This document shows positions 25,060-35,440 of a stretch of DNA of 64,000 nt, piece by piece; the stretch's first letter is position 1, and each line of letters starts with the position of its first letter. Under the pieces are notes generated by a model. It did not search any database, was not told the origin of the DNA, and saw nothing but the letters and a program-made list of their open reading frames with translations. The position numbers and the translations under genes were made by a program. The DNA comes from Opitutus sp. ER46 (GTDB lineage: Bacteria > Verrucomicrobiota > Verrucomicrobiia > Opitutales > Opitutaceae), in NCBI RefSeq assembly GCF_003054705.1, contig NZ_QAYX01000019.1, forward strand, positions 124,001 through 188,000, in the 5' to 3' direction.

Positions 25060-25224
25060 TTACTTGATCTCGCGATGAAGCGTGTGGCGCTTCAGGTGCG
25101 GGTTGTACTTCTTCTTCTCAATCCGCTCCGTGACGGTCTTTTTGTTGCGCTTGGTGAGGTAACGCGAAACCGGTTTGCCCTCTTTGCGCGCTTCCGTGCA
25201 CTCCAGGATGACTTGTTCTTGCAT
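25060..25224 (-). CDS. rpmG: 50S ribosomal protein L33
   Basis: The 54-residue protein from ATG 25224 reads through the L33 family pattern: [38 protein letters not shown] and [12 protein letters not shown]. Only the first cysteine of the possible zinc ribbon is present, so it is a zinc-free form. The longer open frame upstream (to 25419) is not needed. The gene lies 104 bases after the EIIA/DAC fusion gene on the same strand. Confidence 0.92.
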
Positions 25225-25328: not shown

Positions 25329-26672
25329 TCAGCGACGTTTCTCGGTCAGGGGAACCATCACGCCCCGGCGGAACAAGGTCACCTGCCCGGTGCTGGACGA
25401 AACCACGATCGAGATGCAATTCGCGGCTACGCTGATCGCGGCGGCCGCCGCGTGGCGGCTGCCCAGCCCGCTCGGCAGCACGTGGCTGCTGTCGGTCGCC
25501 TGAATCAGGCTGCCCGCCGCCTCCACCACCCCGTCGCCCCGAATCACGAAGCTGCCGTCGATCGACGAGAACTCCTTCACGGTCTCATCCATGAACGGAT
25601 TCAGAATGTTCCGGTCCTCCTCCTTGTAGCCGAAGAACGGATTCAACACGAGGGGCTTGGTCAGCTTCTCCACCTTCTCCGTATCACCGACCACAAACAG
25701 GCAGCCGACCGGGCGGCCTTCGCGGCCTTCGACCGCCAGCTCCGTCGCTACGGCGATCACGCGCTCCAGCACTTCCGGTTTCACATCCTCGGGCAGCAGG
25801 TCGGCCGTCGAGCCGGTGAGCAGCGTCTGAAATTCGCGCTCAATATCCACGACCACAAGCGTGTCGAACTGGTTGCTCCCGGTGATCCCGCCAATGCAGC
25901 AGATTCGGTCGGTAAACGTCACCACGCCGCGCGTCAGCGCCACCAGGATAGAACTGCGCAGTTGCGCCAGCCGCTGGTTCGAGAACGAGCGCACCTGGAT
26001 CGTCTCGGTGAACTGCTTCTCCTCCTCCGTGGGCTCGATCGCCGTCCGCGTCACGAGGATCGTCTTGAACTTGGAGCGCAGCGTCCCGGGCTGGATGCCG
26101 CCGATGAAGGTGTCGCCGAAGACGATGATGCCGCTGCAGTCCGTTCCCTCCGCGACGCGCTCGGCTTCGCGAAACATGAGCCGGTTCACCCGGTTCTGTT
26201 GCGCCTGCACGGCGCGCAGGCCGCCAAAGCCACCGACCAGCCGCTCGTGCAGCGCCTCGGCATCGGGCGCGTTGACGAGACTCTCGACGAGCGAGGGATC
26301 CTTCACCTGCTGCGCGATCGCCGCGAGCACCTGCAGGTAATCGCGCGCGTTCTCGCCCGCGATCAGCATGAAGATCAGATGCACGCGCTCGTCCGCGAGC
26401 GCGCCGTCGTGCCGGATGCCCACGCGGCTCCGCCCGATGGCGAGCACGTACCGGCGCGCCATCTTCACCCGCACGTGCGGCAGCGCGACGCCCAGGCCCA
26501 GGTAGGTGGTCATCGTGCTCTCGCGCGCGAGCAGCCCTTTCAGCAGCGACTCGGGCTTCAGGTCCGGAAACTTCTCGACGGAGACGTCCAGCAACTCCTT
26601 CAGCGCCCCCTCAAGATCAAGGGCGCGCAGGTCGATAATCCGGTTCCGGGCGATGATTTTTTCGAGCCGCAT
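25329..26672 (-). CDS. PTS EIIA-like domain fused to a diadenylate cyclase (DAC) domain
   Basis: The 447-residue protein has three parts. Residues 1-150 match a PTS EIIA domain of the fructose/PtsN type: [15 protein letters not shown] keeps the phosphorylatable histidine (His66), and a [20 protein letters not shown] segment follows. The middle, about 170-310, is an alpha/beta region with [20 protein letters not shown] and [20 protein letters not shown], reminiscent of the pyruvate-kinase-like part of CdaZ-type cyclases. The last 76 residues carry the DAC motifs: [16 protein letters not shown] (residue 372 on) in place of DGA, and [13 protein letters not shown] (Arg406-His407) in place of RHR. 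Making c-di-AMP from ATP is therefore likely. Phosphorylation of the EIIA part could tune it. No membrane helix is present. Confidence 0.8.
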
Positions 26673-26794: not shown

Positions 26795-27169
26795 TCAGCG
26801 CTCCCACTGGAGCGCGCCTTTCTTCACTTCGTACCACAGTCCCAGCACGAGCACCCCGAGGAAAAAGAGGATGGGGCCAAGGATCGCGATATTGTGGGCG
26901 AGGAACTCCCGGTAGATGAACGTCCACGGAATCAGGATCACGATCTCCAGATCGAAGAGCATGAACAGGAGGGCCGTGAGATAGAACTTCACCGAGAACC
27001 GCGTGTGGACCAGCCCCTCCCCCGGCAGACCGCATTCGTACGCCGTGTCCTTGATCCGGTTCTTGCGTGCGCGCTGCCCAAAAAAATGGCTCGCGCCCAC
27101 GACCACGCCGGTGATGCCCGCGGCGAGGACGACCTGGATCAGGAAGGGAAGATACGCTGAGGCGGTCAT
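26795..27169 (-). CDS. nuoA: NADH-quinone oxidoreductase subunit A, isolated
   Basis: NuoA is a three-helix membrane subunit of respiratory complex I. The 124-residue protein has helices at PFLIQVVLAAGITGVVVG, YLTALLFMLFDLEIVILIP and IAILGPILFFLGVLVLGLWY. The hallmark loop AYECGLPGEGLVHTRFSVKF between helices 1 and 2 contains the conserved ECG. Normally nuoB and the rest of the operon follow. Here the next gene is the EIIA/DAC fusion and none of the other nuo genes is in the window. Confidence 0.92.
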   Translation of the reverse strand: MTASAYLPFLIQVVLAAGITGVVVGASHFFGQRARKNRIKDTAYECGLPGEGLVHTRFSVKFYLTALLFMLFDLEIVILIPWTFIYREFLAHNIAILGPILFFLGVLVLGLWYEVKKGALQWER

Positions 27170-32813: not shown

Positions 32814-35156
32814 CTACGGCGCCGCCTGCGGCCCGCCCGCCCCATCCCCCTCCGCCCGCCCGTCGCCGTCGTCCTGCACCTGCAGCCACGTCCGGAAATC
32901 CGCGTTCTGCAGCGCCGTCCCCAACACGAGGATCTCGTCGCCCGCCCGCAACACCTCCTGCGCCGCGGGGTTCAGGATTCGCAACCCGCCGCGCCGCAGG
33001 CCCGCGATCTGCACCCCGAAGGTCTGGGCCGGCAGGAGCGCGCCGAGCGCCTGGTCCACCGCCGGACTCCATGCCGGCACCGACATCACCTCGAGGCTGA
33101 CTTCCTCGAAAACCGAATCGGCTCCACGCGCGCCCGACACGGTCACCAGACACGCCTGCCCCGCCTTCACCTGCTCCGCCGTGCCCAGCAGCAGGACCTT
33201 GTCACGCGGATACAGCACCGTGTCCGGCGGTGGCAGCGGGATCATGAACCCCTGCCGCTCCACCCCCACCACGGAGCAGCCGTACTGCGCGCGCAGGTCG
33301 AGCTCCGCGATACTCCGCCCCTGGCAGTCCGCGAGGTCCGGCAGGGTGCACTCGAGCATCTGCAGGTTCCAGTCCCCATGCGGCTGCAGCCAGGGCGTCG
33401 CCACGGTCGACATGCGCCGCGGGTCCGTGTCGATCGCGTTCAGGATCTCCACCTCCATCTCGCTGTGCCAGTAGATGAGCTTGCGCCGCAGCACGAGAAC
33501 CGCGACCAGCGCCAGCACGCCGCTGAACAGCAGCAGCCAGCGCGTCGTCACGCCCACCGGCACGATCGAAAAGAGCCACAACCCCATGCCGATCGCCGCG
33601 GCGGCCTTCCACGCGGTCTCCACCACCGGCCGCCACTTCCGCCCGTGCGGATGCCCCCGCGTCGACAGCTCCGCGTACAACATCGCCATTGCCGAGAGGT
33701 TTCGCCAGATGGCCACCAGCGGCGCGATCGAGAGCGCCACGAGTCCCGTCCAGAAGCCAATCTCCACGTCGTGCGGGAACAGCCAGTCCGGCCCCACCCA
33801 GCGCTCGACCAGCTTCAACAGCTCGCCGGAAAACACCACGACGCCCGTGACGAACAGCGCGCCGATGCCCACCTGCGCCACGCGCTTCCGCGAGAGCTGC
33901 CACACCAGGTTGCGGCGCCGGCGCTCGCGCAGGCGCTCGAGCCACCCGCGATAGGCCGCCAGCCAGTCGCGCAGCCAGCGCGGCTCCCGCTTGAGCCCGA
34001 AATCCACGATCGCCTCCGAGTGCCGCGACAGCACCGGCGCCACCAGCGTCGTGACCAGCGAGATGCCGACCGCCAGCGGGTAGAAGCTCCGCGGCACCAG
34101 CGCCGCCGCCACGCCCAGTTGCGCGATGATGAAGGAGAACTCGCCGATCGGCGTCGCCCGCAGCCCCGTCCGCGCCGCGTCCTTCGCCGGCGTGCCGATC
34201 AGCGTCAGGCCAAAGCTCACCGCCAGCGCGCGCACCACCACCGCGAACAACCCGAGCCCCACCACCGTCCCGATCTGCGCCCACACTTCGCGGGCATCGA
34301 TCTGCAGGCCGATCGCCACGAAGAACACCGCGCTGAACACGTCGCGCATCCCCTCGAAAATCCGCTCCACCTGCTGCCGGTGCATCGTCTCCGCGACGAT
34401 CGTCCCGAGCAGGAACGCCCCCAGCGCGAGCGAGTACCCCGCCCCCTGCGCGATCACCGCCAGCCCAAACAGCAGCGCGGCGATGCCGATCGTCTGCAGC
34501 TCCTCGTCCGCCGCGATGCTCATCCGCCGCAACAGCCACGGGACCAGCAGCAGCCCGCCGATGCCGGCCAGCACGACAAACGCCCCCAGCAGCAGTACCG
34601 TACTGGCAATCTGGGTACCCGGGCTCCGGTCCAGCCCCACCAGCGAGTTGAGCAGCGTCAGCATCACCACCGCCACCACGTCCTCGATCACCGCCACCCC
34701 CATCGCGAGCTGCCCCGACCGCTCGTGCGTCGCCCCTGTCTCCTGCAGGATGCGGCTGATGATCGCCGAGGACGACACCATCAGCATGGCCGCCAGGAAC
34801 AGCCCCTGCGCCCCGCTCCAGTCCAGCACCCCGCCCAGCACCCGCGAAAAATAGAAGACCACCAGCGCCCCCGCCAACGTCGCCAGCATCAGCGATAATC
34901 CCAGCCGGCGCAGCTTTCGGACGCTCAGGCGCAAGCCAATGGAGAACATCAGGAACACCAGGCCGATCTGCGCCAGCGTCTCGATCCGCCCCGGGTCCGA
35001 CACCAGGGAGATCGGCGGCGTGTACGGCCCCACCACCATGCCCGCCACCAGGTATCCAAGCACCACCGACAACCCCAGTCGCTGGCACACCCAGCCCACC
35101 ACGCCGCCAACGGCGAGGATGACGGCAAGGTCCTGGATGAAGTGAAAACCGTGCAT
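32814..35156 (-). CDS. KefB-like monovalent cation:proton antiporter with two RCK_C domains
   Basis: I choose ATG 35156 ([20 protein letters not shown]), giving 780 residues; a longer frame to 35438 adds only Arg/Ala-rich sequence. Residues 1-390 are a CPA2 antiporter core with about twelve helices: [38 protein letters not shown], and [20 protein letters not shown] with the ion-site acidic residues. An added membrane part follows (about 430-560), then two RCK_C (TrkA_C) domains around residues 590-690 and 695-765. No NAD-binding RCK_N domain is visible. Export of potassium or sodium under pH or osmotic control is likely. It is divergent from mreB. Confidence 0.85.
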
Positions 35157-35363
35157 GCTTGCGGGAGAGGCGCCCGCAGCCTTGGCCCTCCTCCGCCGCG
35201 CGCCCAGCGAAAACCTCCGGCCCTCGCCGCCCTCCCGGGATTTTTCCGTGGCCGGCGATGCAACCAATCCCCCTTTCCGCGTTCCAACGGGCCGCGTCCG
35301 GCGCCCGCGCGACCCGCGCGCCGCAAACCTCGCCCCCGGGGCATTTTCCCGGCTTTTCCCTCG

Positions 35364-35392
35364 TTGACACCCTGTGGCGGCGCCGATTCGTT
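35364..35392 (+). promoter_or_regulatory. Weak candidate promoter upstream of mreB
   Basis: TTGACA at 35364-35369 is a perfect -35 box. At 17-base spacing the -10 position reads TTCGTT, a poor match. It sits 49 bases before the mreB start and is the best candidate in the divergent region. Confidence 0.25.
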
Positions 35393-35440
35393 TCCGTCGG
35401 CGGCAACGCCGCCACCGCGCTCTCCGCTCAGACCTCAATC

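Follow-up and report, generated by a model that had tools for sequence, protein, structure and literature searches.

The gene considered here lies on the minus strand at positions 25329..26672 of the window, i.e., the whole 64,000-nucleotide stretch of the Opitutus sp. ER46 genome that was analysed, and is a real and complete open reading frame encoding, from an ATG start, a protein of 447 aa. A preliminary description made from the sequence alone had proposed for this protein an N-terminal PTS EIIA domain with His66 as the active-site histidine, a CdaZ/DacZ-type middle part and a C-terminal DAC domain with DGS and SRH motifs. All three parts were recovered by Pfam with scores far above the respective cut-offs: PTS_EIIA_2 at residues 13-144 (26241..26636, minus strand; E = 7.8e-20, 71.8 bits versus a cut-off of 27), DacZ_P at residues 160-283 (25824..26195, minus strand; E = 1.2e-31, 109.4 bits versus 27.4) and DAC at residues 313-438 (25359..25736, minus strand; E = 1.7e-20, 73.2 bits versus 27). 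The predicted phospho-acceptor His66, whose codon was calculated from residue 66 of the frame to be at 26475..26477 (minus strand), aligns with the PH of the PtsN motif VAIPHGR, and the C-terminal motifs read D372-G373-S374 and G404-S405-R406-H407-A408. The middle part belongs to a named Pfam family, DacZ_P, which is annotated as a 'probable sensor domain'; the family profile at 163-266 weakly matches the C-terminal region of pyruvate kinase (3eoe, E = 0.0095). A search of the whole genome (5.7 Mb) with PF02457 matched no protein other than this one, which we refer to as EIIA-DacZ_P-DAC, the product of a dacD-like gene.

The AlphaFold model, built on an alignment (A1) of 52 of the 68 rows described below, in all 52 of which DacZ_P is present, has a mean pLDDT of 85.8 and a pTM of 0.59, so that the domains are confidently predicted and their mutual arrangement is uncertain. 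The best PDB match in Foldseek was EIIA-Ntr/PtsN (3urr, E = 3.8e-10, TM 0.86 by target), followed by DAC structures of CdaA (6hvm, E = 8.7e-8, TM 0.68 by target). DAC is thus found by both Pfam and Foldseek, the combination that defines the DAC superfamily, and the DacZ_P (PK_C-like) domain preceding it is the hallmark of the DacZ superfamily. Neither of the outcomes named in the preliminary description as refuting it, a missing significant DAC match or a C-terminal part with another fold, was observed. The best NCBIfam match is the archaeal DacZ model NF041371 (112.4 bits, residues 230-440), and the DacZ_P-like middle domain is shared with archaeal DacZ/CdaZ, but here EIIA is added and the score is far below the equivalog cut-off of 430 bits. 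With CdaA/DacA the protein shares the DAC fold and the DG(A/G/S) and RH motifs, but it differs by its EIIA-DacZ_P N-terminus and by the missing third Arg of RHR, and it scores 30.5 bits with the CdaA model against a cut-off of 188.8. A tree of DAC domains from 31 rows of the EIIA-linked type and 10 CdaA rows, which contains several long branches, splits the two at 100/100. The EIIA part resembles PtsN/EIIA-Ntr in fold, in its His motif and in the regulatory PTS setting, but is fused to a cyclase; its PtsN and fructose IIA scores are equal (45.9 and 45.3 bits), both being below the cut-off.

The gene is flanked by a conserved upstream neighbour, nuoA (Oxidored_q4, 26795..27169, minus strand; PF00507, E = 3.3e-27), and by a conserved downstream neighbour, an rpmG-like gene of 54 aa named by eye and surveyed by tblastn (25060..25224, minus strand). 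Among the best 80 of 522 named loci, searched by tblastn with 3 kb flanks that in many cases were cut by contig ends, nuoA was found in 73, gene g27281 in 57, rpmG in 50, Mrp in 47, a TolB-like gene in 41 and dnaG in 37, and in all 10 loci inspected for gene order nuoA directly adjoins the cyclase gene. The cyclase gene is located in the conserved core of the genome and not in an island; its adjacency to nuoA implies no functional link. No other nuo gene is present among the inspected neighbours of the window nuoA. The setting differs from that in Haloferax volcanii, where dacZ is described as adjoining mscS (PMC6741144). An exchanger-type antiporter with two TrkA_C domains (32814..35438, minus strand; PF00999, E = 4.5e-57; PF02080, E = 2.7e-23) is encoded 6 kb from the cyclase gene and is one of 3 TrkA_C proteins in the genome. 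Because a TrkA_C domain, that of a K+ transporter, figures in a list of c-di-AMP receptors (PMC7288161), this antiporter is a possible c-di-AMP target. At its 5' end, the antiporter gene overlaps a divergently oriented reading frame that resembles mreB by eye (35159, plus strand). No promoter-like site was detected near the cyclase gene in our scan, the 3 terminator-like sites versus 2.0 expected are uninformative, and the window contains no match to an Rfam family at or above the gathering score.

We consider it fairly probable that the protein functions as a soluble c-di-AMP synthase, belonging to the DacZ superfamily and probably to class DacD, and that the PTS sets its output. In such a scheme, EI and HPr would relay the phosphate of PEP to the EIIA domain at the N terminus, where His66 would accept it, the phosphorylation state of His66 would alter either the packing of EIIA on DacZ_P/DAC or the meeting of two DAC domains, and this change would in turn alter the rate at which 2 ATP are converted to c-di-AMP. 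DacZ_P, with its pyruvate-kinase-C-like fold, could provide a second, ligand-binding input. The c-di-AMP produced would act on K+ and osmolyte transporters, namely TrkA_C antiporters and, in relatives, riboswitch-controlled Kup and APC permeases, and would in most genomes be removed by a PgpH-type phosphodiesterase. Cyclase activity, phosphorylation of His66 by HPr and the effect of phosphorylation are all steps that we infer. In Escherichia coli, the phosphorylation state of the PTS sets adenylate cyclase through EIIA-Glc; our guess that phospho-EIIA would be the permissive state for the diadenylate cyclase follows from this analogy with EIIA-Glc~P. The proposed likeness lies in the PTS state setting a nucleotide cyclase, whereas the E. 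coli proteins interact in trans and produce cAMP and the protein described here is a fusion linked to c-di-AMP.

A profile search for DacZ_P (PF21755) in 387 sampled genomes of the phylum identified the domain in 67 genomes, namely in all 36 of the family of ER46, in 23 of 27 from the rest of the order and in 8 elsewhere; in 65 of the 67 the score is above the cut-off. The complete EIIA-DacZ_P-DAC protein is encoded by 59 of the 63 sampled genomes of the order. The 68 places with DacZ_P yielded 68 aligned rows, the window sequence replacing its own fetched copy, of which 64 are full-length (59 from the order and 5 from outside) and 4 are short and devoid of EIIA (L038, L053, L065 and L067), although the absence of EIIA is unsure in L067, which begins at a contig end, and in L053, which lies in a long GC-rich frame. 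The mean frequency of the most common residue is 0.61 for EIIA, 0.61 for DacZ_P and 0.79 for DAC. The existence of the EIIA-less rows, including the two unsure ones, together with that of archaeal DacZ-type enzymes described without EIIA (PMC6741144), would fit a scenario in which a ligand of DacZ_P is the main input and EIIA is a minor or lineage-specific modifier. We regard this scenario as rather unlikely, because every one of the order's 59 carriers can be aligned over the EIIA part, including G301, in which it falls below detection by Pfam.

The histidine itself is retained in 60 of the 64 full-length rows and, among the best 80 of 522 named loci, in 78, the other 2 having Tyr; Pro65, His66 and Arg68, at 94-98%, rank with the most conserved columns of the EIIA part. 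One of the 4 exceptional rows (G363) has Tyr in place of His66, and the remaining 3, from g27 genomes (G146, G172 and G301; rows L063, L066 and L068), have Ser or Cys and have also lost Arg68 or its setting. All 4 genomes retain EI and HPr, and hence no correlation between the loss of His66 and that of EI or HPr was found in this set. On the basis of the alignment, these rows would speak against a universal need for phosphorylation. The g27 substitutions may reflect a decaying pathway, a possibility raised by three other genomes of family f3 that lack both DAC and a PgpH-type domain, or may equally reflect another role of EIIA.

Connection of the protein to phosphotransfer, as envisaged in the preliminary description, which proposed to survey the genome for the EI and HPr genes, would depend on these two proteins. 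The survey detected 3 HPr and 3 EI matches in the ER46 genome, one of the EI sequences containing GSKTSHAVI. We extended the search to a set of 80 genomes, comprising the 63 of the order, 8 from elsewhere that have DacZ_P and 9 class controls. EI was found in all 80 (63/63 of the order) and HPr in 79 (62/63 of the order), the single miss being the DAC-less genome G143; accordingly, all 59 carriers of the order encode both, as do, with equal frequency, the 9 class controls, in which the protein is absent, so that EI and HPr are not specific to EIIA-DAC carriers. The phosphorylatable His of HPr is intact in all 17 genomes read, namely that of ER46, 12 with a single EIIA_2 match and the 4 in which His66 is lost. 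EIIC (PF02378) is present in only 7 of the 63 genomes of the order, including ER46, EIIA-Man is absent from all 80 genomes and the EIIA-Glc type occurs in 1 of 80 (G169). The genome of ER46, with 7 EIIA_2 and 2 EIIC matches, also encodes a sugar-type PTS, and the EIIA-DAC protein is one of several EIIA proteins there. Of the 59 carriers, 12 have exactly one EIIA_2 match, which in the 10 examined (all except G339 and G360) lies within EIIA-DacZ_P-DAC. Thus, the cyclase may be the sole acceptor, among the EIIA types searched, in genomes that keep EI and HPr, and from these distributions it is plausible that the c-di-AMP level is set by phosphotransfer.

The same data bear on the reading that the enzyme is an active c-di-AMP synthase and EIIA is a docking or structural module, binding for instance transporters or HPr, with phosphorylation having no effect on the cyclase. 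Such a role would be in line with the loss of His66 in 4 of 64 rows in which the remaining protein is kept, with the greater variability of EIIA and DacZ_P compared with DAC, and with the action of E. coli EIIA-Ntr on K+ systems through partner binding, as presented in PMC13104625. It appears unlikely, however, given that nearly all rows retain Pro65, His66 and Arg68 and that no carrier of the order lacks EI or HPr, including those with one EIIA_2 match.

Returning to the proposed PTS-set synthase, the question of whether the cyclase is active had been raised in the preliminary description, which pointed to DGS and SRHAA as variants of DGA and RHR. Residues D372, G373, R406 and H407 are invariant in all 64 full-length rows. 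Residue 374 is A in 59 rows, G in 2, C in 2 and S in 1, the last being the ER46 protein, and residue 408 is A in 58, T in 4 and S in 2, the third Arg of RHR being missing throughout. The best 80 of 522 named loci, which may overlap with the 64 rows, gave a similar distribution: A 72, G 3, S 2 and C 2 at position 374 (79 readable), and A 72, S 5 and one gap at position 408, with the rest uncovered. By comparison, 30 CdaA-type loci of the phylum, 29 of them readable, have DGA in 16 and DGG in 13, and RHR in 29/29. DGS, a small-residue variant, is therefore rare, whereas the lack of Arg after RH is the norm of the class. Judged from these alignments, different small residues appear to be tolerated after DG, and the absent third Arg would be a class feature rather than decay of the ER46 copy.

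The genomic context of the DAC domain points in the same direction. DAC was found in 371 of the 387 genomes of the phylum. Within the order, the 59 of 63 genomes with DAC are the same 59 that carry EIIA-DacZ_P-DAC, and 56 of them have no second DAC match. The exceptions are G220 and G307, both from the family of ER46, with a second DAC (best E about 1e-31) scoring well above the EIIA-linked form, and G169, with a second DacZ_P-DAC copy of about 296 aa without EIIA (L191:7750-10024). Downstream of the latter, at a distance of no more than about 50 bp, lies a gene for a DUF2254 membrane protein, an arrangement that recalls the archaeal dacZ-mscS pairing. In the DAC-bearing genomes outside the order, the DAC is mostly far higher-scoring, and those read are of the CdaA type. 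The PgpH-type domain PF07698 is encoded in 50 of the 59 carriers of the order and absent from 9, two of which have c-di-AMP riboswitches; of the four DAC-less genomes of the order, PF07698 is absent from 3, all from family f3, and present in G143. Riboswitches for c-di-AMP (RF00379) were detected in 8 of the 80 genomes, namely in 2 class controls and in 6 carriers from the family of ER46, none of which has a second DAC. Among the at most 35 candidates scored per genome, none was found in ER46, nor in 53 of the 59 carriers overall, and such misses are weak owing to this number of candidates. Four riboswitch loci from the family were read (L193-L196), and in 3 of them the riboswitch precedes a gene for Kup (L193; PF02705, E = 1.5e-166, truncated by the locus end) or an APC permease (L194 and L196), and in L195 a gene for a Band_7 protein. 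By eye, we take the two APC permeases to be KimA-like; neither had an NCBIfam match at 1e-5 that would identify it as KimA.

With a single DAC in 56 of 59 carriers and the co-occurrence of riboswitches and PgpH-type domains, an active c-di-AMP synthase would be by far the simplest reading, and the earlier doubt about cyclase activity appears to be mostly removed by these observations and by the invariant D, G, R and H. A degenerate DAC that binds nucleotide or c-di-AMP without making c-di-AMP would account for the missing third Arg, for DGS replacing DGA in ER46 and for the ER46 genome lacking a riboswitch match, but it is highly improbable considering that the Arg is absent class-wide (64/64), that CdaA-type loci tolerate Gly at the position of residue 374, that the carriers with no second DAC include six with riboswitches and that the three DAC-less f3 genomes are also devoid of the PgpH-type domain; for the same reasons, namely the class-wide RHA, the single DAC and the riboswitches, an inactive cyclase was largely rejected. 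An anti-phage (CBASS-like) DAC was set aside, the match to the diadenylate cyclase model of PADLOC being weak (E = 9.1e-7, 27 bits) and the neighbourhood conserved, and a chance match to the motifs is excluded by the Pfam E-values and the fold.

The class of the putative synthase has probably been listed before. DacZ and DacY/CdaZ are treated as one family with bacterial members in PMC6741144, the appendix of which names representatives of class DacD from Lacunisphaera limnophila, Coraliomargarita sp., Puniceicoccaceae, Verrucomicrobia and Opitutae. Lacunisphaera belongs to Opitutaceae and Coraliomargarita to Opitutia, so that DacD shares its taxonomic home with the EIIA-linked protein, and the best 80 of 522 named relatives carry Opitutia-type or broad Verrucomicrobia names, with one labelled Akkermansia muciniphila. 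EIIA-DacZ_P-DAC is thus probably class DacD, the two being equated through member names and taxa and not through a domain description; since the EIIA-linked protein is the only DAC in 56 of the 59 carriers of the order, the listed DacD members are very probably EIIA-DacZ_P-DAC proteins. No experimental test of an EIIA-DAC protein was found in the open-licence literature, which is no proof of absence. The survey 'All DACs in a row' (Galperin 2023) reportedly classifies DAC architectures and may well describe EIIA-DacZ_P-DAC. The present analysis adds the apparent replacement of CdaA, a PTS that in most genomes sampled from the order has no PF02378 EIIC, the co-occurrence with riboswitches and PgpH-type domains, and the observation that some relatives have lost His66; it also largely dispels the doubt attached to DGS/SRHAA.

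To our knowledge, the signals that set c-di-AMP levels are largely open. The putative input proposed here is a phospho-histidine receiver, whose donor, HPr, can be purified together with EI of the same chain, making metabolic control of c-di-AMP testable in one tube, and the His-less relatives offer a natural contrast to the His66-bearing proteins. We tentatively suggest, as a possibility short of an expectation, that in much of Opitutales the PTS has been turned from sugar transport to a chain leading from PEP through EI and HPr to EIIA-DAC, of which the cyclase would be a main end point, and perhaps the sole one in some genomes. In that case c-di-AMP, and with it K+ and osmotic control, would respond directly to the state of PEP/pyruvate or nitrogen, and the protein would have replaced CdaA there as the housekeeping c-di-AMP synthase. 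EIIA-Ntr governs K+ transport in proteobacteria, acting in E. coli on TrkA, YcgO and KdpD according to PMC13104625; if the proposal is true, EIIA-Ntr and c-di-AMP, each known separately for K+ control, would be joined in one polypeptide.

Outside the order, EIIA-DacZ_P-DAC can also be found in a distinct gene setting, among further EIIA genes, which favours a link to the PTS. In G159, a cluster (L183:7277-14716) delineated by Pfam matches encodes a Zn-ribbon-EIIA protein, a radical SAM protein, EIIA-DacZ_P-DAC, EI and an APC permease-EIIA protein. A cluster of this kind was not seen at the DacZ_P-DAC loci of G383 and G035. Judging from EIIA matches and like N-termini, the G159 layout recurs without EI in G247 (L184:4713-10100), and the APC permeases of both clusters, of about 612-618 aa, have EIIA fused at the C terminus.
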